The notes below the pieces were generated by a model. The model did no database searches. It was not told the origin of the DNA and saw only the letters and a program-made list of their open reading frames with translations. The translations under genes and the position numbers were made by a program. DNA of 47,348 nucleotides from a virus, in the IMG/VR virus record IMGVR_UViG_3300025133_000190, positions 1 through 47,348 of that record. One strand, written 5' to 3'. Below, in pieces: positions 2,188-47,348 of this stretch (position 1 is the first letter of the stretch; each line of letters opens with the position of its first letter).

Positions 2188-2408
2188 GTGAATCAGTACG
2201 GATACTAGACATTGTACAGAGAGTCGGCCAAGCTGGCATGACTGGTGATGTCGTCGGAGAGTTGCAAGCCCTGCTTGAAGCAATGGAGTGGGCGATTGAG
2301 AACCCTGTGGTGGCTCGTCGGATAGGCTTTGAAATGGCAGGCGCCAAGCTAAGGGAAGTCGAACTTCGCAAGATGCTAGAGGTAGGGCAGATGGATGCCA
2401 AGCAATAG
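2184..2408 (+). CDS. Hypothetical 74-residue protein
   Basis: A small acidic, probably all-helical protein of no recognised family. It is supported by tight packing: its ATG overlaps the stop of the DUF1353 gene (ATGA) and its end overlaps the start of the DUF3987-like gene by 14 bases. No signal peptide or membrane segment is visible. Confidence 0.65.
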   Translation: MSESVRILDIVQRVGQAGMTGDVVGELQALLEAMEWAIENPVVARRIGFEMAGAKLREVELRKMLEVGQMDAKQ

Positions 2409-3573
2409 ACACTTACCAGACTGGATTAAAGGGTACTGCGAGTACCTAGAGCATACTGAAAGCCCTAACCTTTTCAAGAAGTGGGTAGCTATCAGTGCGA
2501 TAGGTAGTGTACTTAGGCGTAAGTGCTACTTGAGCTGGCACAAACATGCGCCTACTTTCCCTAACATGTACATAGTAATCGTGGGTCCGGCGGCGGTGGG
2601 AAAAGGCATAGCTATGGGACCTGCGTATAATATGCTTAAGCGTCTTGACATTACCATGAGCGCCCAGAGTACCACGAGGCAGGCACTTATCGAGGATCTA
2701 ACTGAGAGTACTACAGTTGAAATCTATGATGGGAGCACAGTGACTGAGAGTAACCTGACTATCTTCAGTAAAGAGTTCAGCGTATTCCTTGGTCACCAAA
2801 ACGTGGAGTTGATCAGTAACATAACTGACTGGTTTGATTGTGAGAATGAGTGGACGTATAAGACGAAAGGACGTGGCACGGAGAAGATTGAAGGACTGTT
2901 CGTGAACTTAATAGGGGCCACTACTCCCGGCATCCTGCAGAAGACGCTGACTGAAGACGCCATTAGCGGCGGGCTTACCAGTCGCATAGTGCTAGTGTAT
3001 GCACAGGAGAAGAGCAAGATTGTTCCTATCCCTATGCTGAGCACTGAAGCGCCTAAGCTGTTGGACCACCTGGAGCGAGACCTTGGAAGCATCGCTTGCC
3101 TCCACGGTGAGTTCCGCCTCACGGAAGATGTGATACATAAGTGGGTTGACTGGTACATAGAGCAGGAGAGTGAAGACACGTTCAAGAACCACTCCCGCCT
3201 GCAAGGGTACTCAGGTCGCCGCCCATTACATCTGTTGAAACTTATGATGATTATGAGCGCCAGTCGCTCTGATGAAATGGTCATAACATCTGATGACTTT
3301 GACACGGCAGTGAGTACTTTGCGTGAGGCGGAAGTGTGTATGCCTGAAGTGTTCAAAGGGTACGGACAGAATGTGCTGGCGGAGTTCGTAGAGATAGCAA
3401 TGAACGAGATTAGAAAGGATGGGTTGCTATCTAAGAAGGATTTCCTGAGACGGCACGTGAATGACTTAGACTTGGAAGACCTCAATAAGATACTTGGTAC
3501 ATTGGAAGGTATGGGATTCTGCTCGCTTATCGCTAAGCCGAGTGGAGTATACATACGGTACTTAGGAGGATGA
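2395..3573 (+). CDS. DUF3987-like P-loop ATPase, probable replicative helicase/primase-type protein
   Basis: A 392-residue protein. The N-terminal pattern of Trp-Val-Ala-Ile-Ser-Ala-Ile-Gly followed by Walker A GPAAVGKG (residues 64-71) is typical of DUF3987-type ATPases found in phage and plasmid replication modules. A segment ending SKEFSVFL about 60 residues later could be the Walker B strand, although the acidic residue spacing is not canonical. The C-terminal third is helical and may bind DNA or partners. Lying downstream of the polymerase in the same arm, and with no other helicase in the genome, it is the best candidate for the replicative helicase. The family call is fairly sure; the activity is inferred. 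Confidence 0.65.
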   Translation: MPSNRHLPDWIKGYCEYLEHTESPNLFKKWVAISAIGSVLRRKCYLSWHKHAPTFPNMYIVIVGPAAVGKGIAMGPAYNMLKRLDITMSAQSTTRQALIEDLTESTTVEIYDGSTVTESNLTIFSKEFSVFLGHQNVELISNITDWFDCENEWTYKTKGRGTEKIEGLFVNLIGATTPGILQKTLTEDAISGGLTSRIVLVYAQEKSKIVPIPMLSTEAPKLLDHLERDLGSIACLHGEFRLTEDVIHKWVDWYIEQESEDTFKNHSRLQGYSGRRPLHLLKLMMIMSASRSDEMVITSDDFDTAVSTLREAEVCMPEVFKGYGQNVLAEFVEIAMNEIRKDGLLSKKDFLRRHVNDLDLEDLNKILGTLEGMGFCSLIAKPSGVYIRYLGG

Positions 3574-4309: not shown

Positions 4310-4509
4310 TCCGCACCTGCCTCCCTGCTCGTTACGCTGTCATCCCGAGCAAACAATAACCCTAAGGCCGCCGTTATCATTGCAATACTTTCCGGTGTAA
4401 TGGTGGTGGCGGCGTCGGTATCCAGCAATGCTGTAATGATTGAGCCTAGTGCTAGGAGAAGTGTACCTATGCCTAAGCCGGTAGTCTTAATACTCTTGCT
4501 CTTAATCAT
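4306..4509 (-). CDS. Small membrane protein, holin-like
   Basis: A 67-residue protein with a hydrophobic segment at residues about 11-30 (GIGTLLLALGSIITALL) and a second, weaker one at about 41-53 (ESIAMITAALGLLFARDD). The second has the form seen in small phage membrane proteins of unknown role. It begins in an ATGA overlap with the giant gene and ends in an overlap with the lipoprotein gene, so the three are probably translated together at the end of the late operon. Size, topology and position fit a holin, but no specific family is recognised. Confidence 0.65.
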   Translation of the reverse strand: MIKSKSIKTTGLGIGTLLLALGSIITALLDTDAATTITPESIAMITAALGLLFARDDSVTSREAGAE

Positions 4510-7500
4510 CGTTTAATCTCCGTTAGTGGGCCACGAGCTCTCTGCTCTTTGATAGCCTTGTTCAGATGCTTCTTTCTGATAGCCGTTAACCTTCTATCCA
4601 AGATCCTTACCTTTGCCTCCTTATCCATTCGTTGATAGCCTTTAGAAGTCTCAATAATCTTCTTGACTGCTGGCTTACCCTCTGCTCCGAAGCCTAGCGC
4701 AAGCTGTTGATGAATGTCAGGGTCTAGTCTGTACCGCTTACGTGCCCGAGTGAAAGTCTCACTAGGTATGGAAGGATAGTATCCAAGAGACTCAAACTCG
4801 GAATCTATATTATCTCCTACGTCCATGGAGTAATGCACGGGCCACCAGAACTCCCACCACTTGTTGCTACTAAAGGTGTATGGATCACCCCATACAGTTA
4901 TCTTATCTCTAGTATTCTTCTCTACACCAAACATGCTGTGCAAGATGTCTGTACTGAGTGGTAGCACCTGATGCTCTAACTGGTCAAAGACCTGCGGTAC
5001 GTATTCACCATTCTCGTTCTCTTGCATCTTACCCTTCTTCATCATCCACCGCAGGAATCCTGAGTAAGGGATGAGAGCACCTTCAGCCGTCCGTCCGATA
5101 GCACTCAAGTATTCTTCTGATGTACGAGAATCTACGTAATCATTGAAGGTACGCATGTAATTGTTATTCAGTAACGTGTGACCTATGGCGGTGCCGGCTT
5201 GAGTCAAATCTCGGATAACCTTGTCTTGGTCCTTCTCATCCAGCTCCTCATACTGCCCCAGTCCCTTAAGGCCCTCATAGAGATATGAACGCAAGTCAGC
5301 TACAATCTTGAACGGAACGTTGATAGGTTCGATGTTTTGAAAGCTAATCCACTTGTCACCATACTTGACCGCGTAAGGTATCTTGCCCTCAAGCCGCCAC
5401 TGTTTTCTCTCATTCCTATCTAATGGCAGCGCACCTGTAAACTCATCTTCATCAAAGGCCAGCAACAGGAATGCAGCCATCATGCTACCTTCTATCTGCT
5501 TAGCAATAATATCTGCCGGGCGGTGCCCATAACCGAACTTATCAAACGAGGGGTCACGTGCCCATATAGCTTCTGCCGCCAAGCCTACTCCCGGTGTCAT
5601 CTCCAGCCCACGTTTGCCAAGGTTGACTAGCGTGTTGAAGAACGGGAACACCAGCTTAATGATTGGAGCCTTCTCGCGTACTGCAAGCAAGTGAGTACCG
5701 ACTGTGCCTGGACGGTCCATGAAGGTGTTGTACGAAGCCGCCTCACTCACCTTCTGTCTTATGTGATTTGGAATGCTAGCGTTATCCGCCTTGTATGCAG
5801 CAAGTGCTCGTTTAATGTGAGCTTTCTGAGCAGCTTTATCTCCTGGAAACTTAGTCCTAGCATCCTCTTGCGTAAGCCTGTTCAAGTGACCTTCAGCCGC
5901 TATAATCTTGAACATCATATCGCTAGCTCGCATAAAGGTAATCGGAATGCTAATGGGAAACCCGAGGCGGCGAATCGTAGCTTCCATGTTCTTCCGCATC
6001 AGTTCTCCCTTCTTCTTCCCTAGCACAGCTTCAAACGTCTTATGGGCCTTGCCATCTCTCGGGAGTATGTACCTTTGCCAGGCGCTAATATCTTTTGCTT
6101 GTATATCCATGCCCTTGATGCTCTCAAGACTATGGACATCTCCTATCTTATTGTTCAAAATATTCCAGCCTGCCTCGCCACCGTGAGCTATGCTACTGGG
6201 CACCTGAGAGAACGCTGGCAGCAACGAGGACGCTAGCCCATCCCGCTTACGCTTATCGCCTTGAAAATAGAACTTATCAATAAGCTGCCCCATAACTGGC
6301 ATCCTACCCATGACTGCCATTCCACGGTCAACTGCTCCCGCCAATGGTTCATGCACTACGTAATTCCAACTCGTCCAAGCTCCAGTGAACACAGTATTGA
6401 TACCCTGTGTCTGAGGAGAGGATAGCGTGAACGAGTAGAACGCCTGCATGTACAAGTCCCACATATTCGGGCCTAGTTCACCCATGTTCTTATTAATAAT
6501 ATCAGAGGCTGCCTCAGGATTCTCAAGAGCTTCTAACAGTACTTGAAACCCTGTGTTCCCATACGTCTTCTGTACCTCATCAAGGGTGAATGCGAAACTC
6601 GCCTCAGTTGCTTTGGTAGTAAAAGACTGCAACCGGCGGCCAGCGTCAGAACGCACTAGTAAGAAGTTCCTTATATCCTGCGCAGCTTTACGCCTCTTCA
6701 TCTTACGCACGAGCGCGTTCACAGCCTTAGGGCCATCGTTATACGCCTCCCTCAACTCTGACTCGAATTGTTGACGTAGCTCAATGGCCCTATCTTGCAC
6801 GATGATGACATCCGGTAAGTCCAACGCAGGATGCTGGTTGCCTTGCTCAGCGCTCTTCAGTTTCTCATGTAGCTCCCTCACATATCTCTTACTCTGCTTC
6901 CGTATATTAGCTTCTTCTCTAGCCTCTACCACTGCTGTACTAGTGGTCTTATCTATCCCCATGAAGTCCGCCATAGCCTCAGCCTTGTCTCCAAGGGTCA
7001 CCAATCGACGTCCCTTATGGAACTGAGCACGAGCACGTCGTCGGCGGTTGGCTTCTTTCCTCTCTTCTGGATCCACACTAGTGGCCATCTGTGCAGTAAT
7101 CAAGTCCTCCATAACCGACCTAAGTGTTTTGTCTACATATGTTCCCGGCTTAATGGCTCTACCAGTGGTGTACAGTTCTCCTACATACCTACCAAACTCC
7201 GTAAACGTACCCTTCATCTCTTCCGGTACTTTAGCCGACTTGCTCTGTACCCAGTTCGTAAACCCGTTAGCAAATTTCTCCTCTGCATACCGGGTCCATA
7301 TATCTCCTGCTCTGTGCGGCCCGTTAGGGTCATTCCTATGTGCCCACTTCTCCGCCGCTCGTAAGCTCTTCTCAGGCAACGCTCGCTTCCATGCGTGTGC
7401 AAACTCGTGCACGAAGGTCTGAAGGTCTGAGCCAAGAAAGAAGTTAATATCCCTACTCTCTTGATGAAATGCTCCCAACACCCATGCGTCAGGATTCATA

Positions 7501-10500
7501 GTCTCTTCCACGCTGAACATTACATGACTGCTATCATACCCTACATCCCCGTGGAACACGCTCTTCAGACTGTTAGGAAAGATGACTGAGATAGAATCTT
7601 TCTGGGTATCTTCTCGCCCCTCTACGTGATTCTCATACACTACTCCATCATATCCTAGCTCCGCTAGCATCTGGTACGCTAAGTCCTCATCCTCCTTAAG
7701 GCTAGTATCGAAGTCTCCAAGATGGAGATTAGCCTTCATTTTAGTGTTCTTATCCAATCTATGTCGCTGAGTATCCATCAAATCATGTATCAACTTAATA
7801 GGAGTGTTAGCTACGATATCCTGAAAATGTGGACCCCCACTAGGGCGATAGGCATTTTTGATGTTAGTAACCAATGGTAGCACTCTGCTGGCACCTAACT
7901 CCTGACGCATAGAGTGGTGAGACTCCTGTTGCGTGAAGCCCACCTCTTCGGCGGCGGCGTACCCACCTACATGTAGCCAAGAGATATAGTCACTCCTGCG
8001 CCTAGTTCGCAGATTAGCTGGGTCTACACTAAACACTCCATTCTTCGGAGTATCCATCCTGAACCACACTTGTACGGTCCCATCTTCATTATACCTCAAA
8101 TCTTCACCAGGGCCGGTCTTATCTTTCTTATCTCCATGCCAGGACTTGAAACCCATATTCCTACTGCTTATCTCAACCGCCCGGCGGAGCCTGTTCTGCA
8201 TCTTAGCATGATCCACCTCCCCTCTATAATTGAGGTTGTGATCTCGAAGGTCATAGGTCCAGCGTTTAAGCATCATCGCCAACCTCTCGAACTCGTCCAT
8301 CTCATCAGGTACTTTTTTCTGAGACTCTATTACTTTATCAAAAGCCTTACCACCCTGAGCAATGGCGGCATCCAAATCCACTAACCTCTCCAGCTTCATC
8401 TCTTTAAGCTGTATACTCATCCGCATAGATGCGATTGTAAACGATGGCGCTCCATCAAACGATGACTCTACCGCCTTACGTAGCTTCACCAATCGCTTCT
8501 CTTCAAAGCTACTAGCCTTCTTGTCCGCCACCTTATCTTCCAGCTTTACCATTTCCAGAGCAGTAGGGTAGAACATGTAAAGAGACTCTATCTGTGAGCG
8601 AGCCTTACTTATGTCAGTAGCGTTCCCAGACTCCTCCGCCAGCATCACCACATACTCTTCAAAGAAATCATTGACCTCTGCTGTATCCTGACCAAAGTTA
8701 CCGAAACTATCAAACTCCCCTAGCGCAGTCTCTGTAGCCGATAGCATAGTAGAGGTCCAGCTCTCAGCCTTCTGCTTAGCCGTTGAAGCGGAGAACAATG
8801 CTCTCGAGTCCTCATTGTAATCCCGTACTTTGAGGGCAAGGGCGGCTGCTTGTATCTGGCCCAGCTCCTCCGTGTAGTACTGATTCACATCAAGGCCAGT
8901 CAGGTTAGCCCAGGCTCTCGCCTGCCAGAACACAATGTCCTTCACAATCTCTGCAGCAGCGACAGGATCCTTCGCTCCCACCACAATGCCCGCCTCGACC
9001 ATGTCAGAGTAAAGACTAGTCTGTAAAATCTTCTGGCTGAACTTCTCATGCTCTCCACGTATAGTAGCATATCGATCAGGTGATGTTGTAGTAGAGGCGT
9101 TGAAGAAACTAGGAGCGCCCTTTCGGCGGCCAAAGTCCAGCCCAGTCATTTTATCCAGCTCACTCTCAGTCCTATGATGCCCACCTTCCAGACTCAGCCA
9201 TACATACCTGTTACCGTCCTCATCATACGTAGCCCGGATCTCCTTAGCATCCTGTCGTGAGAACTGACCACTAAACTTATCCAGACCCTGTCGGCGGAGG
9301 TCTCTCATATCACCATCTGTAGGATTCTTGATAACCCTGAACTTCTTACCCAACGCATCCGGCACCTTCATCTCCGCCCTAGCAGCATTCCCATTGTGCC
9401 CCTGCCCAGTACGCCGTACTTCTGTTCCCTTAAAATCTTTCACGTTCTCCTGCTTTTTAGCTATCTGATTAAAGACAAGTTTATTGTCCTTCTTCAGATG
9501 CTCCATGAACTCCTTCATAGACACGACATCAGCAGAAGTCACATACCTATTCCCACTCTTAGTCTCCACCACGTGGAACCTTCCAGTATTCTCATTCCCC
9601 AAGTCCGCCACCCGTTGCAACTCTTCCTCAATAGAATCCTCACTAGGGTTCCGCATAATGGGAACACTGTCACGTCCTCTAATCCTCAAAGAGTCAAACC
9701 GTTCAGTCAGCAGTCCAGTCTTGTTCTCTTGAAACAAGTCCCTGAATCTAAGCCCTTCATCCCCCAGCTTAGCTCCAATCTCTTCCTCAATCTGCTTCCG
9801 TACACGCGCAGCATGAGGGCCCTCTGCCGCCCACACATACTTGTTACCTGCTCTATCATAAGCAGCATTCAGCTTAACGCCCTTCTGATTACTCCCTAAC
9901 AAATTCTTGAAGCGGTTGTTAGTCTGATTCAGCTTCTCCAAGCTGCTAGGGTTAACCAGCACCTGAGCCTTGCTAAACAGCCCTCCTACCTCAATCTCAC
10001 CTTCCTCCTTAACATCCAGCTGATGCAGAACCTCTCCTTCTCCGTCCTCAAAGCTCTGCGCCCCTGCTTCTATCTCAGCCTCATTCACCGCCTTGTTAGC
10101 CCACTTCAAAGCAGCGTTCAAGTTATTCATGCTACTCACATACAGATGCACATTCGCTTGATACTCTTGGTCTGACTGGCCCTCTTGTTGCTGAATCTCA
10201 TAAACCCCCTTCTCCTCATTAAACTCAAACTCCAGCAGCCCCGCCTCCTCAAACCTACCCTGCAACAACTCAGCACTGGTCATATCCTTACTCAGCACCT
10301 GCGCCGCAAGGCTCGCATTTCCTGCATAGTACTCTACTACATCTTCTCCCTTCACTGCTTTCCCAGAAGACTCATCGCTGAACAGGCTAGCTGTAAGGGA
10401 CTCCAAATCAGGAGCATCAGGAACTTGTCCATGCTCATACCTTGCGCCGCCTACATCCTCACTAGCAAAGTCCGGATTAACACGGACGGCTTCTCTTATC

Positions 10501-12311
10501 TCTCGCTGAACCGTAACTTCTTCTCTCTCCGCCTCCGTCATTCCACTAATCTCACTCAGCTCCTTCCTCAACGGACTAGCCACATGAGCCTTAGAGATCG
10601 CTAACTGCTTCTTCTTCACCTTCTGTGTAACACGGCGAGACTTGACCGCCGCTGCCTTAAAGTCAGGCACACCAAACAGGCCAACCCTCACCTTATCACT
10701 CTCATCCACCACCGCCTTCATGCGCTGCGAGCTAGACAGCTCCACATCCACACCATCAGCATTCTCCTTAACTATCCGCTCAACACTTCTCAACGGTATA
10801 GCCTCACCCTTTATCTCCACCACCCCCTCTTCAGTTTCAATAGTATTCCTCACCTTGCCATAGTCACCAGGTATCCACCAGTAGTTACCATCCTGTGCTT
10901 CCACTATCCCACCTCTAGTGGTACTGCCTGCGCCAGTTACTATGGTACTCTCTCTTTTCAGCTCCCCTGTCTCAGGGTCAGTATATTCAAAGTGCGTAGC
11001 TTCCGCAAGATCCGCCGATAGCACCCCAACCTGATACTGGGTGCTAATCTTCTTACCTCCCAGACTGCTCAAGTTCTGTGCATTTTTACCTGTCACCACC
11101 CCTGCCGCTTTCTTAGCTTGTCGAGGCGGAGCTGCAATCCCGCCCGTAATAGCGCCCACAATAAAGCTCGCAGGCCCAACCACAGCAAAGGCATCCATGA
11201 ATGATTTAGCCGCATCAAACATCTCAGGATCTTGCAACAAATAATCACTCATGATTTGGTCAGCGCTTTCCTGCACTGCTTCCATACCACCAGCCGCAAA
11301 CCTTGCAATCACGCCCTGCTGAAACGGCGCAGGCAACTTACCCATCAGCCACGCTGCCTGAGGCAGGCTCATAACACCACTAGCTGTAGCCTGAGCAGCA
11401 AACAACTTCAGCGCAGTTCCCAGACTATCCCCTCTAGCCCTACTGACATCATACACCCCCAAGCCTTCCATCGTACCAGCTTGCACTTGTATACTAGCCA
11501 TCGCAATGTTCTGCGCATTCTTCGCAGCCCATGCTCCCGCCGCCCCATACTTCGCAAGCCCTTGCGCACCCTTCACCACAGCCTTAGCTCCAAAGCCCAT
11601 CCCATAGATCTGAGCAGCGAACTCAGCTATACCTGGAAGTATATTCCGCGGGTCAGTCAACGCTTCTTTAAACTCCTGCTCACCTTCCGGCCTATGCACA
11701 AACCCCTCAACATAATCACTCCACTCATCCCACATCTCATCGCCGTCACGGAACCAAGTATGCCCAGGCAACACAGCTTCTTCAGCAATAGCCAGCCCAG
11801 TCGTAGCGATATCTACAAACCCCATAGCTCCGCCCAAGAATGCAGCGGGCATACTCTTAACCCCTAGCACCGTCTTATCCCAATAACTATATGTCTCCGC
11901 TTCCTCGGGCGGCATGGCCTCTAACGCCTGATACATAGGAGTATGCAAAGCCCGCCGATGAAAGCTCGTGACCTCTATAGGCATAGGCGTGCTATCCTGC
12001 AACTCTTGCAGCCTATCCTTCTCACCGTGGCGGCGCATGTAATCATACACCTCCAATGGCATAGGCGGATCAGGAGGACCCTCTGGCCCCTTACTCAGTG
12101 CATGCTCAACCAGTCCAGGCTGAGGCACACTCTCCTCCAACCTAGCTCTCTCAGGACTGAGGCGGCTATCATCCTCAGGGTCAGTTTGCACCGACTGGCT
12201 AAGCCCACTTCCAGTGGACAACTTCTCACTTACTCCTCTTCCTTTATTCTCCTCTCCTAACAAGTTCGGCACAGGCTCAGGATTAGTAGCACCTTCAAGA
12301 TCAATACTCAT
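4506..12311 (-). CDS. Giant polyvalent virion protein (ART-like plus zinc metallopeptidase domains)
   Basis: About 2601 residues, one sixth of the genome. I chose ATG at 12311 (TGATG overlap, GGAAGG upstream) over a GTG three codons earlier. The N-terminus is Pro/Glu-rich, then come Gly/Ala-rich amphipathic or hydrophobic helices (residues about 150-420). Residues about 700-1030 carry repeats around GNKYVWA / GNRYVWL. Residues about 1410-1590 resemble the ADP-ribosyltransferase-like domain of polyvalent proteins, ending YDGVVYENH and then SISVIFPNSLKS. HEFAH at 1635-1639 (bases 7395-7409), followed by EEKFANGF, is a zincin active site with the likely third ligand. The C-terminal 700 residues resemble large ejected phage proteins. 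It is probably packaged and injected with the DNA, acting on the host envelope or host proteins. The domain calls are by motif; the biological role is inferred. Confidence 0.85.
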   Translation of the reverse strand: MSIDLEGATNPEPVPNLLGEENKGRGVSEKLSTGSGLSQSVQTDPEDDSRLSPERARLEESVPQPGLVEHALSKGPEGPPDPPMPLEVYDYMRRHGEKDRLQELQDSTPMPIEVTSFHRRALHTPMYQALEAMPPEEAETYSYWDKTVLGVKSMPAAFLGGAMGFVDIATTGLAIAEEAVLPGHTWFRDGDEMWDEWSDYVEGFVHRPEGEQEFKEALTDPRNILPGIAEFAAQIYGMGFGAKAVVKGAQGLAKYGAAGAWAAKNAQNIAMASIQVQAGTMEGLGVYDVSRARGDSLGTALKLFAAQATASGVMSLPQAAWLMGKLPAPFQQGVIARFAAGGMEAVQESADQIMSDYLLQDPEMFDAAKSFMDAFAVVGPASFIVGAITGGIAAPPRQAKKAAGVVTGKNAQNLSSLGGKKISTQYQVGVLSADLAEATHFEYTDPETGELKRESTIVTGAGSTTRGGIVEAQDGNYWWIPGDYGKVRNTIETEEGVVEIKGEAIPLRSVERIVKENADGVDVELSSSQRMKAVVDESDKVRVGLFGVPDFKAAAVKSRRVTQKVKKKQLAISKAHVASPLRKELSEISGMTEAEREEVTVQREIREAVRVNPDFASEDVGGARYEHGQVPDAPDLESLTASLFSDESSGKAVKGEDVVEYYAGNASLAAQVLSKDMTSAELLQGRFEEAGLLEFEFNEEKGVYEIQQQEGQSDQEYQANVHLYVSSMNNLNAALKWANKAVNEAEIEAGAQSFEDGEGEVLHQLDVKEEGEIEVGGLFSKAQVLVNPSSLEKLNQTNNRFKNLLGSNQKGVKLNAAYDRAGNKYVWAAEGPHAARVRKQIEEEIGAKLGDEGLRFRDLFQENKTGLLTERFDSLRIRGRDSVPIMRNPSEDSIEEELQRVADLGNENTGRFHVVETKSGNRYVTSADVVSMKEFMEHLKKDNKLVFNQIAKKQENVKDFKGTEVRRTGQGHNGNAARAEMKVPDALGKKFRVIKNPTDGDMRDLRRQGLDKFSGQFSRQDAKEIRATYDEDGNRYVWLSLEGGHHRTESELDKMTGLDFGRRKGAPSFFNASTTTSPDRYATIRGEHEKFSQKILQTSLYSDMVEAGIVVGAKDPVAAAEIVKDIVFWQARAWANLTGLDVNQYYTEELGQIQAAALALKVRDYNEDSRALFSASTAKQKAESWTSTMLSATETALGEFDSFGNFGQDTAEVNDFFEEYVVMLAEESGNATDISKARSQIESLYMFYPTALEMVKLEDKVADKKASSFEEKRLVKLRKAVESSFDGAPSFTIASMRMSIQLKEMKLERLVDLDAAIAQGGKAFDKVIESQKKVPDEMDEFERLAMMLKRWTYDLRDHNLNYRGEVDHAKMQNRLRRAVEISSRNMGFKSWHGDKKDKTGPGEDLRYNEDGTVQVWFRMDTPKNGVFSVDPANLRTRRRSDYISWLHVGGYAAAEEVGFTQQESHHSMRQELGASRVLPLVTNIKNAYRPSGGPHFQDIVANTPIKLIHDLMDTQRHRLDKNTKMKANLHLGDFDTSLKEDEDLAYQMLAELGYDGVVYENHVEGREDTQKDSISVIFPNSLKSVFHGDVGYDSSHVMFSVEETMNPDAWVLGAFHQESRDINFFLGSDLQTFVHEFAHAWKRALPEKSLRAAEKWAHRNDPNGPHRAGDIWTRYAEEKFANGFTNWVQSKSAKVPEEMKGTFTEFGRYVGELYTTGRAIKPGTYVDKTLRSVMEDLITAQMATSVDPEERKEANRRRRARAQFHKGRRLVTLGDKAEAMADFMGIDKTTSTAVVEAREEANIRKQSKRYVRELHEKLKSAEQGNQHPALDLPDVIIVQDRAIELRQQFESELREAYNDGPKAVNALVRKMKRRKAAQDIRNFLLVRSDAGRRLQSFTTKATEASFAFTLDEVQKTYGNTGFQVLLEALENPEAASDIINKNMGELGPNMWDLYMQAFYSFTLSSPQTQGINTVFTGAWTSWNYVVHEPLAGAVDRGMAVMGRMPVMGQLIDKFYFQGDKRKRDGLASSLLPAFSQVPSSIAHGGEAGWNILNNKIGDVHSLESIKGMDIQAKDISAWQRYILPRDGKAHKTFEAVLGKKKGELMRKNMEATIRRLGFPISIPITFMRASDMMFKIIAAEGHLNRLTQEDARTKFPGDKAAQKAHIKRALAAYKADNASIPNHIRQKVSEAASYNTFMDRPGTVGTHLLAVREKAPIIKLVFPFFNTLVNLGKRGLEMTPGVGLAAEAIWARDPSFDKFGYGHRPADIIAKQIEGSMMAAFLLLAFDEDEFTGALPLDRNERKQWRLEGKIPYAVKYGDKWISFQNIEPINVPFKIVADLRSYLYEGLKGLGQYEELDEKDQDKVIRDLTQAGTAIGHTLLNNNYMRTFNDYVDSRTSEEYLSAIGRTAEGALIPYSGFLRWMMKKGKMQENENGEYVPQVFDQLEHQVLPLSTDILHSMFGVEKNTRDKITVWGDPYTFSSNKWWEFWWPVHYSMDVGDNIDSEFESLGYYPSIPSETFTRARKRYRLDPDIHQQLALGFGAEGKPAVKKIIETSKGYQRMDKEAKVRILDRRLTAIRKKHLNKAIKEQRARGPLTEIKR

Positions 12312-13795
12312 CACTGCCACCTTCCATCACCATAAATAGACCAATTAAGTCTCTTCTCAAAGCTCCAATTGCCCCACCCAGCAGGCTTCGGCTTCTCACG
12401 AAGCACTGATTCAAACAAGTTAGGATCATTCTTAAATCTCTCTAGCGCATCAGCGATAGCACGTTTTCTAGCACCTTCTTCACCTAAGGCATGACGATAA
12501 GTAGCTATCTCTACATTAATAGCTTCTTCATAAGGCTTCAATATCTCAGGAAGCTCACTTGACTTACTTACATCATTCACAATAACCTCTTTATTAACTT
12601 CAGACTCGTCGCTAGCTTCAGCCTTACTCCCAGTAACCAGTACATCTCCCTCAGCGTTAACGACGGCGGATTCAGGCTCTGTAGCTTCTGTCCCTGCAGG
12701 AGCATTCGGACGCCTACCATTCGCATCAGCTTTGGTCTCATCTTTAGGTAAAAGCGTCGCCGGCCATCCAGGTCGTGAAGGCTTAATCCCATTCACAACC
12801 CCACTAGCTGCATCATCCACCATAGCCCTGAATCTCTGTCCCTGATTACCTGCCGTCCAAGCCTTCACCGCATCATCAGTGCCCTCCTTCAACGACTGAG
12901 AGATAGCGGCATCTCTACCCTGCAGCACTTCAAGCAGCTTGACCCCCTCAGGATCTTTCTTAATAATACTCACATAGTCATGATAAGTAATCCGCTTATC
13001 CACTATACCTCTAAGTATCATAGCCACCTGCGCCTTATTAACCTCTTCAGGAGTATACACAGGCATACCGCCGGGCGCATACTCATATTGCTTCATTCTC
13101 TCCGTCATCGCCTTATCAAAAATCGCCCCAGACTCTACCGTAGGCCCAGTGTAATTATCAGCCCTGCTAGCCATCTCCATTTCATATTCTATCGCCTCCT
13201 TCTCCTTAACGGCCTTATTAGCCTGAGCTACTCTCAATCTAGCTGAAGCCCTCGACTCTCCTATCTGCGCCTCACCCAGCTTCAAGTCCTGCTGATGCAG
13301 CTCATACTCAGGAGTGCCCGGAGTAGTAACCCTACTCCTAACTTTATCCTGCCTTTCAAACTCACCTTTCCTGAACTCAACTTCATTATCAAAGCGAATT
13401 CCCTCAAGCCCTTCTCGAAACTCCTGCTCATCCTCACGCGCAGTAATAGCCGCCGCAGCAGCCTCACTATCACTCACATCATTCATTGCTATCTGATGTT
13501 CACTCGCTGCAATCTGAGCATCCGTAGCCCTAGTCTGATTAGCTAGCCGCTTCTTCTCCAGATTATGCTCTTCCCGCCGCCGGTTAATCTCAGCCTGCGC
13601 CACATCCCTACTAGCAACCTCCTCTCTAAACGCCCTGTTATCCTCTGGCGTACCGCCGAACCCTAGACTCAATTCAGATGACACCGGAAGCGCATCCGTC
13701 TGACCTCCAAGAGTGCTAAGCAACCCTTGCACTCCCGGATCCTCAAACAGAGTGCCTAGCCCGCTCAACGCTGCTTTCGCTTTAGCTTTAGGCAT
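12311..13795 (-). CDS. Probable internal virion protein, coiled-coil rich
   Basis: 494 residues from ATG 13795, which has a perfect GGAGG eight bases upstream; the in-frame TTG further up is unlikely. The first half is a long charged helical region (repeated Arg/Glu/Ala/Gln) likely to form coiled coil, and the second half is more globular with an acidic linker. No enzymatic motif is visible. Its place directly before the giant polyvalent protein (TGATG overlap) and after two other Gly/Ala-rich proteins matches the internal core or ejection proteins of podoviruses. I infer a structural, ejected protein. Confidence 0.65.
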   Translation of the reverse strand: MPKAKAKAALSGLGTLFEDPGVQGLLSTLGGQTDALPVSSELSLGFGGTPEDNRAFREEVASRDVAQAEINRRREEHNLEKKRLANQTRATDAQIAASEHQIAMNDVSDSEAAAAAITAREDEQEFREGLEGIRFDNEVEFRKGEFERQDKVRSRVTTPGTPEYELHQQDLKLGEAQIGESRASARLRVAQANKAVKEKEAIEYEMEMASRADNYTGPTVESGAIFDKAMTERMKQYEYAPGGMPVYTPEEVNKAQVAMILRGIVDKRITYHDYVSIIKKDPEGVKLLEVLQGRDAAISQSLKEGTDDAVKAWTAGNQGQRFRAMVDDAASGVVNGIKPSRPGWPATLLPKDETKADANGRRPNAPAGTEATEPESAVVNAEGDVLVTGSKAEASDESEVNKEVIVNDVSKSSELPEILKPYEEAINVEIATYRHALGEEGARKRAIADALERFKNDPNLFESVLREKPKPAGWGNWSFEKRLNWSIYGDGRWQ

Positions 13796-25790: not shown

Positions 25791-27374
25791 TTATACTCTC
25801 CATCCTGGGATGTCCCCCATATCTGAGGCCGTTAGTTTCTTGAGCGCCATCTCTTCCGCGTGGAAGTCCAAGCCGCCCGGCATAAGAATCTTGCCTGAGG
25901 CGTAGTTCCGTTTTACGGTTTGATTGGCGAAATAGCGGTCGCCTTTATGCATCATGCCAGTGATGTAGGATAATGCGTCAATTAAGTCTTTTCGTTTTGC
26001 GCGTGGGTAGTGTACTAGTTGTTCCTCAAGGGTGTCATTCAAGGGGTGGTCTCTGAGGTGCCAGATCTTTCCCTGATTGTACATGGGGACGAGGGCGGCG
26101 GATATGCGAGCGTCTTTGCCGTGTTGCGTGGAGCCTTTTGGTATGTACTGAGAAGGTCCACCCTTCGCAGCCAGAGAGACAAATTCGATTCCCAGTCCTC
26201 GTTCAAGTATTGCAGATTTCCACGGGTGCTCGATGTACTCGCCACTGCCGGCTACCTCCACGCCTATCACTTTCGCGCCAATCCTCTGGCACATGTTAAG
26301 CCCTTCGTCTATCTGTTCGTGTACGTGGAGGCGGGAGCATACCATGTCTATGATAAAGGCTTCGCCGTTCAGCATGTCTAAGCCGACGCCCACAATGGCG
26401 GTGTCACACGCGCTTTGCGTGACAGTCTTAGCAGGGTCCACCAGCACGAAGTATTCAAGGAAGCGGTCTTTGAGCATGTTAGGAGTGTAGTATTTGAAGA
26501 GCGAGGAGCGGAATGGAGCGCCTTCAGGAGACATGCAAATGTTGCGGTACTCACGGAAGAAGACGTCCATCAGGCCTTGCGCGCGATAGCGGTTAGCCAT
26601 ATCCCTCACCTCGGCGGAGGTCTGCTGCTCAGGCCAGTTAGACTCGTACTCATCATCGCACAGCTCCAAGTGTATGGAGTGCCAGTGAGGGTCTTCTAAT
26701 AGGCGCATCAACAGGGAGTCTTCATGGAGGACAGTACCGATTACAATGATACGCCACTTCTTGGAGTTCCGGTCAATACTGCCCATGATGTCGGAGTAGA
26801 AGCGTTCAATCTTCTTCTGCCGCATTTCCTCACTTAGAACGGACTCGGAGTCCTCGTAGTCATCAATGATGTAGAGGTCCGGCCGCTCATCTTTGTACAG
26901 AAGCCCACGTACCTGCTGTCCGTAGGACGTGGGAATGTACATGCAGCCGTACTTGTCTATCGTGTTCATGACCCACATATCACGACTCCACACGTCGCTT
27001 TGTAGGTTCTTGAAGCCGAGGTCATGCAACCGCCGGTTGTGTTTAAGCTGGTGCTTCAGGTTCTCACTCTGCATCACACTCTGCTTGAAGGAAGCGGATA
27101 CAGGGATAATGAACTTGCTATCCTGGAAGATGGCTCTCTTCGTCGGATAGGCAAGCTGGACCATAGAAGTTTTACCAAAGCCACGCCAGGAGGCTATGAC
27201 AAGAAGTTGGATGCTGTCGTCATCCAGTGCTTGGAACACCTTGTCATGGGAAGGGGAGAATGGAAGGCGAAAGCGGCCAGGGTAGAATACCTTGGCGGCT
27301 ACTTTCGTGCTTGCAGCGCATTGTGCGAGGATTTCGCGCTTTGCGTCGCCTCCTGGCGTGTCTAAGATACTCAC
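25791..27374 (-). CDS. terL: Large terminase subunit
   Basis: A 527-residue DNA-packaging motor. The ATPase domain has Walker A WRGFGKTS (about residues 63-70) and Walker B LYIIDDYED (about 167-175). The nuclease domain has acidic residues D313 (LVDPAKT), E373 (GVEVAG) and D466 (DLIDALSY), the RNase H-like metal site. The start is GTG at 27374 in a GTGA overlap with the upstream gene; its SD is weak, so it is probably translated by coupling. All catalytic residues are present. The small terminase candidate is separated from it by eight genes, an uncommon layout. Confidence 0.95.
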   Translation of the reverse strand: MSILDTPGGDAKREILAQCAASTKVAAKVFYPGRFRLPFSPSHDKVFQALDDDSIQLLVIASWRGFGKTSMVQLAYPTKRAIFQDSKFIIPVSASFKQSVMQSENLKHQLKHNRRLHDLGFKNLQSDVWSRDMWVMNTIDKYGCMYIPTSYGQQVRGLLYKDERPDLYIIDDYEDSESVLSEEMRQKKIERFYSDIMGSIDRNSKKWRIIVIGTVLHEDSLLMRLLEDPHWHSIHLELCDDEYESNWPEQQTSAEVRDMANRYRAQGLMDVFFREYRNICMSPEGAPFRSSLFKYYTPNMLKDRFLEYFVLVDPAKTVTQSACDTAIVGVGLDMLNGEAFIIDMVCSRLHVHEQIDEGLNMCQRIGAKVIGVEVAGSGEYIEHPWKSAILERGLGIEFVSLAAKGGPSQYIPKGSTQHGKDARISAALVPMYNQGKIWHLRDHPLNDTLEEQLVHYPRAKRKDLIDALSYITGMMHKGDRYFANQTVKRNYASGKILMPGGLDFHAEEMALKKLTASDMGDIPGWRV

Positions 27375-31512: not shown

Positions 31513-31580
31513 TTCCCACTACGTGGGAAACATGGGGAAAGTGCTGCTAGCCGGCCCTTCTGCGAAGGGAACATGGGGGA
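31513..31580 (+). repeat. Two-unit hairpin repeat with 41-bp period
   Basis: Unit 1: arms TTCCCAC (31513-31519) and GTGGGAA (31523-31529) with loop TAC, then ACATGGGG. Unit 2: arms CCCTTC (31555-31560) and GAAGGG (31564-31569) with loop TGC, then AACATGGGG. The loops and the AACATGGGG element are each exactly 41 bases apart. The stems differ in sequence but keep perfect pairing. The design matches the longer array at 32980-33230. Confidence 0.7.
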
Positions 31581-31750: not shown

Positions 31751-31780
31751 TTGACACAGGGGGGTGTGTTTTGGTATTAT
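31751..31780 (+). promoter_or_regulatory. Sigma70-type promoter for the early (plus-strand) arm
   Basis: -35 TTGACA (31751-31756), 18-base spacer, -10 TATTAT (31775-31780). The -35 is a perfect consensus. Transcription would start near 31787, leaving a leader of about 170 bases before the gene at 31959. Confidence 0.75.
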
Positions 31781-31821: not shown

Positions 31822-31915
31822 CGCGCGCGGTGATAGCGCGCGAACCCTACGCTCTTTGACAGTTGAATGGTTGCATACGCGGTGGATAACGCTACCTCAT
31901 GGAGCGTTGGTATCC
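31822..31915 (+). promoter_or_regulatory. Structured 5' leader of the first early gene
   Basis: Two hairpins are visible in the leader. CGCGCGC (31822-31828) pairs with GCGCGCG (31836-31842) around a 7-base loop. GGATA-ACGCT (31884-31893) pairs with AGCGT (31903-31907) and TATCC (31911-31915), with a small bulge. No T tract follows either. Possible roles are mRNA stability or control of the early message; no known riboswitch family is recognised. Confidence 0.45.
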
Positions 31916-32522: not shown

Positions 32523-32912
32523 ATGGTTAACAGTGCTATGGTAGTCCGCCGTGAAGCTAAAAAACTGAGTAATCATCTCAGTAAAGTAATAACTCATCTC
32601 GATGCATGCGGAGTGTTAAGCGATGATGTTAAGTACACGCTAGAGTGCGAGTTGGAGCGTGTGAATGAGATACACGATGATTGTCACTTCGCCCTACGCG
32701 AAGCCCGGTGCGTACTGAATGAGTACACCGCGGTAACAAACGCAGCACGCTTGCTAATGGGCCAGACTTTGGTGAGTCACCCCGATGAGGATGATAACAC
32801 AGAGTTTGTGTTCAAGGCGTCATGCGAGAGACTATGGCGTATGGCGGTGATGGAGGAAAACACCGCCCGCAATGCCTTGTATGAAATACCTTCGCCACGT
32901 AAGTTGGTGTAG
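32523..32912 (+). CDS. Hypothetical 129-residue helical protein
   Basis: SD GGGAG before ATG 32523. The protein is almost entirely helical, with Leu/Glu/Arg heptad-like spacing (LSKVITHLDACGVLSDDV; LECELERVNEIHDD) and five Cys and five His residues without a clear zinc pattern. No family recognised. It is followed by a strong terminator, so it forms a small early operon with the 31959 gene. Confidence 0.65.
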   Translation: MVNSAMVVRREAKKLSNHLSKVITHLDACGVLSDDVKYTLECELERVNEIHDDCHFALREARCVLNEYTAVTNAARLLMGQTLVSHPDEDDNTEFVFKASCERLWRMAVMEENTARNALYEIPSPRKLV

Positions 32913-32932
32913 AATAGCCAAGTGAGAGTGTT

Positions 32933-32964
32933 AGGTCCCCACCACATAGTGGGGACCTTTTTTT
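32933..32964 (+). terminator. Rho-independent terminator
   Basis: AGGTCCCCAC (32933-32942) pairs with GTGGGGACCT (32949-32958), a perfect 10-bp stem with loop CACATA, followed by a run of seven T (32958-32964). It ends the first early transcript. Confidence 0.9.
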
Positions 32965-32979
32965 GTGCCCACACAACAT

Positions 32980-33229
32980 GCTGTGTTAGGTCTAACACAG
33001 CTGCGCTGTGTTATTCAACCATTAGAATAGCTGACTGGGCTGCGCCCAGTCATATTCAACCATGAGAATGCCTCACTACGCTGCGCGTAGTGTATTCAAC
33101 CATGAGAACGTGCAAGTAGGCTGCGCCTACTTGTATTCAACCATGAGAGGCCCTCACTACGCTGCACAACTGGGCTACGCCCAGTTGTATTCAACCATGA
33201 GAGGCCGGGGACTTAGCGCGCGTAGCGCG
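32980..33229 (+). repeat. Tandem hairpin array, period 40-41 bp
   Basis: Five repeats of TATTCAACCATGAGA (starting at 33012, 33053, 33093, 33134, 33188; the first reads ...CCATTAGAA) alternate with perfect hairpins. The left arms are TAACACAGC (32993), GACTGGGC (33033), CACTACGC (33074), CAAGTAGGC (33113) and ACAACTGGGC (33166), all with loop TGC or TAC. A last hairpin CGCGC-GTA-GCGCG is at 33217. Arm sequences differ yet pairing is exact, so structure is conserved. A 14-base copy of the CACTACGC arm (33152-33165) lies unpaired before the fifth hairpin and accounts for its longer spacing (54). An upstream GCTGTGTTA at 32980 can compete for the first arm. No protein is encoded. Confidence 0.8.
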
Positions 33230-33271
33230 ATGGCCCTACGGGCGGCGGTGTTGAGGGAAGTGTTATTGTGT

Positions 33272-33484
33272 GTAACCATGTTACCCATGTTACCGCTGTT
33301 ACCCTAAATTCTGACCCCACCCTACACACACACACCCGTGTACCCTTGTAGTGGTTACTATAACCAGTTAGTAAAAAAAAAATTTTAAAGAAGAAGAGAG
33401 AGAACCACTTACAGGTAACGACAGGGGGTGCCCTCCAAATGTACGGTAACACGGGTAACAAGGGTAACCGTGGTAACAGGTAAC
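33272..33484 (+). other. Candidate replication origin with inverted GTTACC/GGTAAC iterons
   Basis: GTTACC occurs at 33280, 33289 and 33298 (exact 9-bp period). The reverse complement GGTAAC occurs at 33414, 33445, 33454, 33463, 33472 and 33479 (mostly 9-bp period). The two clusters face each other across a region with TGGTTA-CTA-TAACCA (33352-33366) and an A/T-rich tract (33371-33403). Iteron clusters flanking an easily melted tract are the classic layout of an origin. No function is shown; an operator array is the alternative. Confidence 0.55.
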
Positions 33485-33499
33485 AATCCACACCCCACC

Positions 33500-33744
33500 C
33501 AGCGCCTACGGCGCTGCACTATCCCATACCTGTCGCCGCCCCTCACATGTCACGAGTGTCCCGTTCGCAGAACGGTCGGCCCCATGACCGTCCATGTTCC
33601 CCCTTCTACTACATTCAAACCTTGAACACAGTAACGGCGCATAGCGCCGGGTCCGTGATAATGACAACAACTATAATAACATTACCCGCTTCATTTCAAC
33701 CGCCGCCCGTGCCGGGCGCAACAGCTAAGCGTGGCGTAGCCACG
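33500..33744 (+). repeat. Five scattered perfect hairpins with 3-nt loops
   Basis: The arms are CAGCGCC/GGCGCTG (33500-33516, loop TAC), CCGTTC/GAACGG (33561-33575, loop GCA), CGGCGC/GCGCCG (33635-33649, loop ATA), CGCCCG/CGGGCG (33704-33718, loop TGC) and CGTGGC/GCCACG (33730-33744, loop GTA). The second overlaps another possible hairpin, ACGGTC with GACCGT (33572-33591), and the two exclude each other. The stretch between the iterons and the next gene holds only these, one dyad element and a promoter; I see no gene in it. Confidence 0.65.
33608..33632. promoter_or_regulatory. 25-bp dyad element, copy 4
   Basis: Left arm ACTA-CA-TTCAA, centre ACC, right arm TTGAA-CA-CAGT. It lies in the non-coding block, three bases before a perfect 6-bp hairpin and about 145 bases upstream of the promoter at 33777. 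Confidence 0.6.
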
Positions 33745-33776: not shown

Positions 33777-33805
33777 TTTACATCCACCCTGCTTTGTGTT
33801 ATAAT
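33777..33805 (+). promoter_or_regulatory. Sigma70-type promoter for the second early operon
   Basis: -35 TTTACA (33777-33782), 17-base spacer, -10 TATAAT (33800-33805, perfect consensus). It drives the run of small genes starting at 33886. Confidence 0.75.
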
Positions 33806-43077: not shown

Positions 43078-43515
43078 ATGTCTGAAGATCTTACTTCCCA
43101 AGCCCCCGAAGGTTTCCTTTCCGTACCGAATACCGCTGACGCTGTAGAGCCTGAGCTTGTGCCCGCCGGTGACTACACCCTTCGCCTCACGCGCGTTGAC
43201 AACACCAACAGCAAGAAGGGCGACCCGATGTTGCACCTCATCTTTGCTGTCGAAGACAGCGGCATGGTGAACCCGGCTCCTGTTCACAGTTACCTGATGC
43301 ACCCGCTTCCCAGCGATGACGAAGGCCAGACGAACAACAAGCGCCTTGGTTTCAAGCGGTTCTTCGAGTGCTTCAACGTCCCCGTGGACGAGAATGGTGG
43401 AGTGGAACTGGCGATGCTTGAGGGCTTGACTGGCTCTGTCTCCCTTTCCATCCGCCCGGGCAAGGGTGAGTACGGCCCGAGCAACAACATCAGCAAGTGG
43501 CACAAGGCCCACTAG
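43078..43515 (+). CDS. ssDNA-binding-like protein (DUF669-like, Sak4 partner)
   Basis: A 145-residue protein. The middle reads AGDYTLRLTRVDNTNSKKGDPMLHLIFAVED, the strand-turn-strand pattern of DUF669/OB-fold proteins that accompany phage recombinases, followed by LMHPLP and KRLGFKRFFECFNV. Probably coats single strands for replication and for the Sak4-like ATPase. It has its own leader (dyad element, hairpin, SD) and its own terminator, so it may be made in large amounts. The family call is by pattern. Confidence 0.65.
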   Translation: MSEDLTSQAPEGFLSVPNTADAVEPELVPAGDYTLRLTRVDNTNSKKGDPMLHLIFAVEDSGMVNPAPVHSYLMHPLPSDDEGQTNNKRLGFKRFFECFNVPVDENGGVELAMLEGLTGSVSLSIRPGKGEYGPSNNISKWHKAH

Positions 43516-46284: not shown

Positions 46285-47348
46285 ATGGACTTCACATCCA
46301 ATCTCTTGGCCGGCTGTGGGCCAATCGACAAATGTAAGATTTGTATCGTAGCGGGATACCCATCCAACACAGAGATAAACACTAAGAGCTGTTTCACTGG
46401 TCGCCAAGCTGACCTCCTAAAGGACCTACTCACCACCGGCGGCGTGATGCCATCCCAAGTCTACTACACCAACGTCATCAAGGAACGCTGCACCACCCCC
46501 GCTAAATGGCTCAAGTTCGGCAAGACCAACATCACCCCGTCACCTGAATACATCCAAGCCGAAGCCGCATTGAAAGAGGAACTCTCAGCATGTTCAGCAA
46601 ATGTATTCCTCCCAATAGACAACATCGCCCTGTACGCACTAACCCGAGAAACCAGCGTGGACAAGTTTCGCTCCTCTATCCTACACTCCACACTGCTCGA
46701 AGGAAAGCGAAAGGTAATCCCCACCCTCTCACCCGCCTCCGCATGGAGGAACTATCTCTTTCGCCACTTCATCCTTCACGACATAATCCGTGCTCGAAAA
46801 GAATCTGTGTTTCCCGAAACCCATCGCCCACAGTACGAGCTAATCACAGAGCCTACCTTCGAGGAATGCATAGACTACATCAAGCAGTGCAACGATGCCT
46901 CCCTGATAGGTTACGATATAGAAACAGCCAAGCTCCAACTAGACTGCTTCTCTCTAGCCCTCTCACCCACATCGTCTATCTGCATACCTATAGTCGCGAA
47001 GGGCACTCCTTACTGGTCACTAGAGCAAGAAGCGGAAATTCTTCTCGCACTCGCACGATTACTCGCCAACCCTTCCTGCACCAAGGTCCTGCAAAACGGA
47101 AACTACGACGCTACCTTCATGTACGAACGGTACGGAATGCTAACCCATCCAGTCGAAGACACCATGATAGCACAGGGCCTCTTGTTCCCTGACTTCCCCA
47201 AGTCCCTTGCCTTCCTCTGTTCCACGTACACCAATCACCCGTACTACAAAGACGATGGCAAGCAACGTTTCAAGGGCTATCTCACCGACGACGAATCCTT
47301 TTGGCGATACTCTGCCCTCGACTCACTCACCACCCTCGAGGTCTGGCA
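46285..47348 (+). CDS. polA: UDG-like / family A DNA polymerase fusion, N-terminal part
   Basis: This is the N-terminal 354 residues; the rest lies at 1-1440. Residues about 1-190 resemble the uracil-DNA glycosylase superfamily (family 4 type): IVAGYPSN where active enzymes have GEAPG, then FTGRQADLLKDLL and VYYTNVIKERC. The C-terminal HPS motif is replaced (LSPAS), so glycosylase activity is doubtful. Residues about 205-350 are the 3'-5' exonuclease with DIET (D211, E213), NGNYD (D275) and YSALD (Y342, D346), all intact. Fusion of a UDG-like domain to polymerase A is known in some phages, such as SPO1-like polymerases. The ATG lies three bases after the 33-residue peptide gene; its SD (AAGGGAAG) lies in that gene's end. 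Confidence 0.9.
   Translation, partial: MDFTSNLLAGCGPIDKCKICIVAGYPSNTEINTKSCFTGRQADLLKDLLTTGGVMPSQVYYTNVIKERCTTPAKWLKFGKTNITPSPEYIQAEAALKEELSACSANVFLPIDNIALYALTRETSVDKFRSSILHSTLLEGKRKVIPTLSPASAWRNYLFRHFILHDIIRARKESVFPETHRPQYELITEPTFEECIDYIKQCNDASLIGYDIETAKLQLDCFSLALSPTSSICIPIVAKGTPYWSLEQEAEILLALARLLANPSCTKVLQNGNYDATFMYERYGMLTHPVEDTMIAQGLLFPDFPKSLAFLCSTYTNHPYYKDDGKQRFKGYLTDDESFWRYSALDSLTTLEVW
47281..47348. repeat. Terminal overlap, right copy
   Basis: Right copy of the overlap with 1-68 (64 of 68 identical, four synonymous changes). Joins the polymerase frame to base 1. Confidence 0.9.

Follow-up and report, generated by a model that had tools for sequence, protein, structure and literature searches.

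The question raised by this locus is what a tandem series of short, perfect hairpins does in the noncoding control region of a phage genome. The DNA analysed, hereafter the window, was an IMG/VR virus record of 47,348 bases. Five perfect triloop hairpins with stems of 8-10 bp were located at 32993-33202, each followed by a box, TATTCAACCAT(G/T)AGA, and the array is flanked by an intrinsic terminator and the promoter of the rightward early operon (Table 1). All five stems are perfectly Watson-Crick paired around loops of TGC or TAC, as an earlier note on this DNA had described, and the box starts given there (33012, 33053, 33093, 33134 and 33188) were confirmed exactly. A unit spans 40-41 bp and comprises a 19-23-nt hairpin, a spacer of ~6 nt and the 15-nt box; the hairpin and box units number five, not the six that had been counted. 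The first box is a variant (CCATTAGA), and ATTCAACCATGAGA was present in four exact copies and one copy with a single mismatch, with none elsewhere in the window at up to 2 mismatches.

Table 1. Features of the hairpin array and of its surroundings, with positions in the window
Feature	Position	Strand	Remarks
C-GTA-G hairpin TTCCCAC-TAC-GTGGGAA	31513-31529	-	followed by a AACATGGGG-like box
C-GCA-G hairpin CCCTTC-TGC-GAAGGG	31555-31569	-	followed by a AACATGGGG box
Intrinsic terminator	32933-32964	+	10-bp stem then T-run; ends gene 32523-32912; array begins just downstream
Alternative hairpin GCTGTGTTAG-gt-CTAACACAGC	32980-33001		inverted repeat; overlaps unit 1
Hairpin 1, TAACACAGC-TGC-GCTGTGTTA	32993-33013	-	9 bp; minus-strand loop C-GCA-G
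Box 1, TATTCAACCATTAGA, variant	33012-33026	+	shares 2 nt with end of hairpin 1
Hairpin 2, TGACTGGGC-TGC-GCCCAGTCA	33032-33052	-	9 bp; minus-strand loop C-GCA-G
Box 2, TATTCAACCATGAGA	33053-33067	+	
Hairpin 3, CACTACGC-TGC-GCGTAGTG	33074-33092	-	8 bp; minus-strand loop C-GCA-G
Box 3	33093-33107	+	
Hairpin 4, CAAGTAGGC-TGC-GCCTACTTG	33113-33133	-	9 bp; minus-strand loop C-GCA-G
Box 4	33134-33148	+	
Orphan 5' arm, CCTCACTACGCTGC	33152-33165	+	identical to 33071-33084 (5' arm of hairpin 3)
Hairpin 5, ACAACTGGGC-TAC-GCCCAGTTGT	33166-33188	-	10 bp; minus-strand loop C-GTA-G
Box 5	33188-33202	+	
C-GTA-G hairpin CGCGC-GTA-GCGCG, without box	33217-33229	+	
Left iterons, GTTACCnnn x3, 9-bp period	33272-33304		putative origin
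A/T tract, possible unwinding element	33370-33389		maximum AT 0.87 over 30 bp between iteron arrays
Right iterons, inverted, GGTAACnnn x4 + partial	33443-33485		inverted repeats
C-GTA-G hairpin CAGCGCC-TAC-GGCGCTG	33500-33516	-	
C-GCA-G hairpin CCGTTC-GCA-GAACGG	33561-33575	+	
C-GTA-G hairpin CGTGGC-GTA-GCCACG	33730-33744	+	
Sigma-70 promoter TTTACA-17-TATAAT, rightward early operon	33777-33805	+	11/12 consensus

The box steps were 41, 40, 41 and 54 bp, and the period of 40-41 bp proposed earlier therefore held for the first three steps and was broken at the last. Because these steps drift by up to ~0.4 turn at 10.5 bp per turn, the claim that the boxes lie on one face of the helix fails. An 81-aa open reading frame (33062-33307) spans the array, although a coding function was rejected as the same steps break phase; no ribosome site was seen for this frame. 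One arm of hairpin 1 is shared with the alternative hairpin, resulting in three alternating arms. The orphan arm between box 4 and hairpin 5 is indeed identical to the arm of hairpin 3 but, rather than the modular gain of a unit, it is likely a recombination or deletion scar, and unequal recombination is suggested since GCTG is shared at the junction.

The phage is uncultured and of the short-tailed type. Its genome is probably closed because the first ~60 bases recur in the last ~70, positions 1-60 being approximately repeated with few mismatches at 47280-47348 within the DNA polymerase gene, and the mismatches suggest assembly from a mixed population. The structural genes run leftward (terminase at 25791-27374, portal, major capsid and a 2604-aa internal virion protein) and the early and replication genes rightward (exonuclease, Sak4-like annealing protein, SSB-like protein at 43078-43515, ParB-like/methyltransferase protein, PolA and a DNA primase homologue at 2395-3573, phrog_14296, 1e-60). 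This gene order is common to Desulfofustis phage LS06 and Microcystis phage Mel-JY34 and, broadly, to Caulobacter phage Kuura. A direct search with the terminase gave no matches; a two-row terminase alignment yielded 69 further relatives, with a terminase identity of at most 45%. Positions 31850-31861 (CGCTCTTTGACA), ~70 bp downstream of a sigma-70 promoter (31751-31780), resemble boxA, the antitermination motif in the leaders of ribosomal RNA.

A chance origin of the hairpins is excluded, with five triloops of stem at least 8 bp observed in the array against a mean of 0.004 and a maximum of 1 in 2000 dinucleotide shuffles. Across the five 8-bp stems pairing was 100% and five of the eight pairs had changed on both sides, and among the 40 stem cells compared nine were changed on both sides and none was one-sided or G.U, which bears out the exact compensation of the outer stems noticed earlier. 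The covariation score was 0.75 compared to 0.16 +/- 0.10 for shuffled sequences (0/500 shuffles). Hairpins 2 and 5 have seven core pairs in common and the next two differ on both sides. This compensation had been taken to imply selection on structure, a conclusion that is not forced because template switching between arms also produces perfect two-sided changes (PMC8794818). Template switching is known at quasipalindromes (PMC7202029), has been documented as making and maintaining perfect hairpins (PMC8794818), and possibly keeps the stems perfect here.

The main rival explanation is that the hairpins are mutational palindromes without function, arising when template switching over short fold-backs, with the very stable GCGNAGC heptamer as its seed, turns one arm into a copy of its partner; perfect arbitrary stems would then be a by-product, and unequal recombination would multiply the unit. 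Such a process is expected to leave arbitrary outer stems around an unvarying GCGYAGC apex, as seen here. The changes that are two-sided only and come several together (hairpin 2 versus hairpin 5), the half unit that remains, and the absence of the array from relatives, whose stems differ, also speak for it. The perfect two-sided arm changes are also those of known template-switch or quasipalindrome hairpins (PMC8794818); yet template switching is a mutation process that leaves a constant box unexplained, and four copies of the 15-nt box have stayed identical despite the changing stems. Two related phages, moreover, keep the C-GNA-G loop rule with other stems, and the hairpins concentrate at the control region, though a noncoding location alone could account for that. 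We regard a purely mutational origin as a credible if rather unlikely explanation, and the process could operate alongside a function.

The loops place the array in a defined structural class. Each of the five apices, read along the minus strand, is GC-GCA-GC or GC-GTA-GC, hence C-GYA-G in GCGYAGC, of the d(C-GNA-G) mini-hairpin class; extraordinary stability has been described for DNA mini-hairpins with a GNA triloop (Yoshizawa 1997, as cited in PMC6479982). C-GNA-G accounted for 7/7 window triloops with stems of at least 7 bp and 11/26 with stems of at least 6 bp; in unrelated viral contigs totalling 355 kb the corresponding shares were 1/67 and 1/183. Eleven of the twelve C-TRC-G/C-GYA-G hairpins (stem at least 5 bp) in the 47 kb were within the noncoding DNA of 31.5-33.75 kb. 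Outside the array, five further C-GNA-G hairpins lie in its noncoding control region, around the putative origin described below; shuffling of the noncoding flanks by themselves gave a mean of 0.008 (0/2000), compared with the five observed. All seven GCGNAGC heptamers at 32.9-33.8 kb form the apex of a palindrome, and none of the other 34 in the window was among the C-GNA-G-class hairpins at a stem of at least 6 bp. The hairpins at 31513 and 31555 share a tag of their own (AACATGGGG). Since every loop in the array belongs to the C-GNA-G class, the reading as DNA hairpins is strengthened.

The earlier note had allowed for either RNA or DNA cruciforms, and the DNA half of that suggestion gained from the loop class. 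A structured RNA would be a small RNA or leader in which five hairpins expose five 15-nt boxes as a sponge for RNA or protein. Folding of the plus strand did beat shuffles (z -6.7), and a leftward promoter-like site (33699-33670) could drive minus-strand transcription, but folding as single-stranded DNA was nearly as extreme (z -6.35), and folding energies by themselves do not tell DNA from RNA. The stems are without G.U pairs, and in 31 C-GNA-G hairpins taken from the window and from the relatives L072 and G017 the first mismatch beyond the stem was G.T in four cases, where ~5 would be expected if mismatches were alike; pairing resumed beyond a stem-end G.T in none. No rightward promoter-like site was found from the terminator to the array, and an Rfam search gave no match at or above the gathering threshold. 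A sub-threshold match to the Burkholderia sRNA ncS011 (32927-33094, minus strand, 22.5 bits with a threshold of 48, E 0.005) is probably chance on hairpin-rich DNA. A DNA-level palindrome is favoured because G.T is not favoured at stem ends, one-sided changes are absent, and neither an Rfam match nor a rightward promoter-like site was found; a structured RNA is accordingly improbable.

Among DNA-level elements, the early promoters read by the virion RNA polymerase (vRNAP) of phage N4 are similar in being short extrudable hairpins of one polarity with a C-GNA-G triloop in a GC-rich heptamer and stem letters that are free when paired (PMC4496689). Extrusion of the N4 hairpin in supercoiled DNA requires a C:G closing pair and a loop with 5'G and 3'A (PMC4496689), and all five loops of the array have these on the template (minus) strand. 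Hairpin promoters of this kind would direct rightward transcription from the boxes: the strand carrying GNA is the template for that direction, it holds the GC-rich GCGNAGC with paired variable flanks in one polarity, the N4 rules for loop, closing pair and -8G are matched (PMC4496689), and the genome has a gene for a giant virion protein of 2604 aa. The N4 vRNAP, however, needs a purine at -11, where C or T occurs in all five units, and the loop-to-box distance varies (9, 11, 10, 11 and 11) although the N4 start distance is fixed. The array also differs in having five hairpins in 200 bp, a mid-loop pyrimidine and stems of 8-10 bp, and both rightward early units have good sigma-70 promoters.

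The giant protein (gene at 4506-12320) resembled known internal virion proteins over ~300 aa near its C-terminus only and matched no solved polymerase; searches of PHROG, Pfam and PDB gave no polymerase match, although a remote homology may have escaped them. Single-subunit polymerase motifs were out of order in it, and a blastp comparison to the giant proteins of the relatives gave 0 matches. The array is not an N4 promoter, as it lacks both the mid-loop purine and a constant distance to the start and no polymerase was recognised, and N4-kind transcription from the boxes is very improbable. Both the N4-type and the RNA readings are less probable than a DNA element of replication.

The array itself was confined to this phage among the sequences searched. 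The box pattern gave 43 single matches in viral contigs, none with a hairpin, and the apex plus box pattern four, again without a hairpin. In genome contigs the twelve single matches had no real stem, which leaves no sign there of a comparable repeat carried by hosts. The covariance-model search that had been proposed was run; within the window it matched the array only, and across 133 stretches of relatives (~1.9 Mb) it gave a single weak hairpin, in L072 (E 0.008). That no described element had been recognised therefore still stands, as the array is absent from Rfam and the unit from every contig searched. Scans of viral contigs for triple GCGCAGC or GCGTAGC mostly gave, among the matches listed, sequences without hairpins, except in an apparently unrelated phage (L295:11998-12100 and L360:5000-5130) where a tandem array of the GCGCAGC-GTA-GCTGCGC type with a 22-23-bp period occupies noncoding DNA close to a stretch rich in A/T. 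Integron attC sites were rejected, since neither the ~41-bp spacing nor the perfect triloops fit, despite the similarity of ATTCAAC to RYYYAAC. CRISPR or anti-CRISPR repeats and type III antitoxin arrays were rejected because the stem sequence differs between units.

The loop class, by contrast with the unit, recurred in relatives. In L076/G017 and L072, C-GNA-G hairpins are clustered in the noncoding stretch that lies upstream of the terminase operon; the stem GTCTGAC carries loops of GTA, GCA and GAA there, and GATACGC-GTA-GCGTATC also occurs. In G024 such hairpins, mostly with GAA loops, are common within the early region. The hairpins of the relatives occur in both orientations and have no common box, features that fit proliferating palindromes equally well. 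Most relatives have no C-GNA-G cluster or enrichment, and several have dispersed operator-like palindromes instead. These 17-bp palindromes (TGTnnnA-n3-TnnnACA) were seen in G009, G041, G034 and L048/L056 (the Desulfofustis phage), with a middle that differs per phage (TGTAAGA, TGTTTAA, TGTTACA and TGTCCCA). The Desulfofustis copies often sit before start codons, and the dispersed palindromes are probably operators of a phage regulator.

A sequence-specific phage protein of regulation, partition or packaging might similarly read the box, with the hairpins as spacers. Within the unit nothing is better conserved than the box, and the relatives have their own dispersed operator-like palindromes; the box, on the other hand, is itself asymmetric, is confined to the array and absent near other genes, and has a spacing that drifts out of helical phase and jumps to 54 bp at the last step. 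We consider such a protein an unlikely explanation. The SAS/ESAS elements of mycobacteriophages likewise combine a short constant tag with inverted repeats in many copies per phage (PMC3203893), although these are dispersed at gene starts as imperfect 17-bp repeats of conserved sequence and form no tandem array. The LIMP/HyLIMP palindromes of Lobosphaera mitochondria and bacterial REP-type elements are also intergenic palindromic families, differing in their loops and stems and in being dispersed, and HyLIMPs show compensated stem changes with a suggested role at origins (PMC4524435).

The neighbourhood of the array points to replication. Short phased repeats, the iterons, were found on either side of an A/T-rich tract, as in iteron-type origins, and the left iterons follow box 5 after ~70 bp. 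Judged by this architecture, the iteron dyad and A/T tract are a probable replication origin, and with a putative origin so close to the array the link to replication, already suggested in the earlier note, is strengthened. A consensus scan of the relatives found the dyad in none other than Desulfofustis phage LS06, which has a similar dyad around a T-rich tract in the corresponding stretch and in which such a hairpin array is absent. Iterons (CCACATTTAG, six copies, 10-bp period) adjoin the C-GNA-G hairpin cluster of L072 (L072:25-86) and are a possible origin in that relative.

A parallel in layout is offered by the ssi sites of IncQ plasmids, which adjoin iterons at the origin (PMC6925257) and are recognised as single-stranded DNA (PMC4434180, PMC6925257). 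The ssiA site of RSF1010 is 40 nt long, with a 21-nt hairpin (nt 7-27) between flanks of 6 and 13 nt (PMC4434180), and the array shares with ssiA/ssiB a ~40-nt unit of ~6 nt, a ~21-nt hairpin and a tail, with iterons adjacent (PMC4434180, PMC6925257). RSF1010, however, has one site per strand, and no RepB' homologue was shown in this phage. In the one IncQ1 oriV checked, no C-GNA-G loop was found; because its hairpins carry other loops, the array does not belong to the ssi family. Overall the array looks like DNA-level structures known from phage and plasmid start sites, with a putative function.

The reading we prefer, at a probability of roughly 0.38, is that the array consists of origin-associated extrudable DNA hairpins with single-stranded tags that serve as ssi-like priming or loading sites, where we infer that the hairpins extrude, that the iteron dyad is the origin and that the sites act in priming or loading. 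The array would be a DNA-level element of the phage replication-control region, comprising five tandem sites that each combine a minus-strand C-GNA-G mini-hairpin with a constant 15-nt tag directly at the end of the stem. Negative supercoiling, or opening from the adjoining iteron and A/T origin, would turn the minus strand into a row of very stable hairpins and leave the tags single-stranded. Primase, helicase or single-strand-binding proteins could then take hairpin and tag together as priming or loading sites, in the manner of the IncQ ssi sites, and the phage encodes a primase homologue and an SSB-like protein. As such a protein would read the apex, the stem shape and the tag, the outer stem letters would be free to change provided that pairing holds. 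The hairpins, their loop class, the two-sided-only changes, the iteron dyad nearby and the same-loop clusters in relatives were observed directly; against the reading stands that origin and function are both deduced from architecture and that no protein is known to bind the box.

A broader and more doubtful proposal is that this is a phage origin whose supercoil-extruded hairpin array is recognised by the C-GNA-G apex and a single-stranded tag, with stems that drift and a loop code that other phages share. If true, it would represent a sequence-blind class of replication site in which the stems differ among phages. If the array is functional, it would be a DNA site conserved in fold and loop class and overlooked by ordinary sequence alignment. 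If it is non-functional, it would be a natural case of apparent compensatory evolution produced by a mutational process, and covariation would then be no proof of a structured RNA. The C-GNA-G loop rule provides a simple scan for the functional and the mutational case alike.
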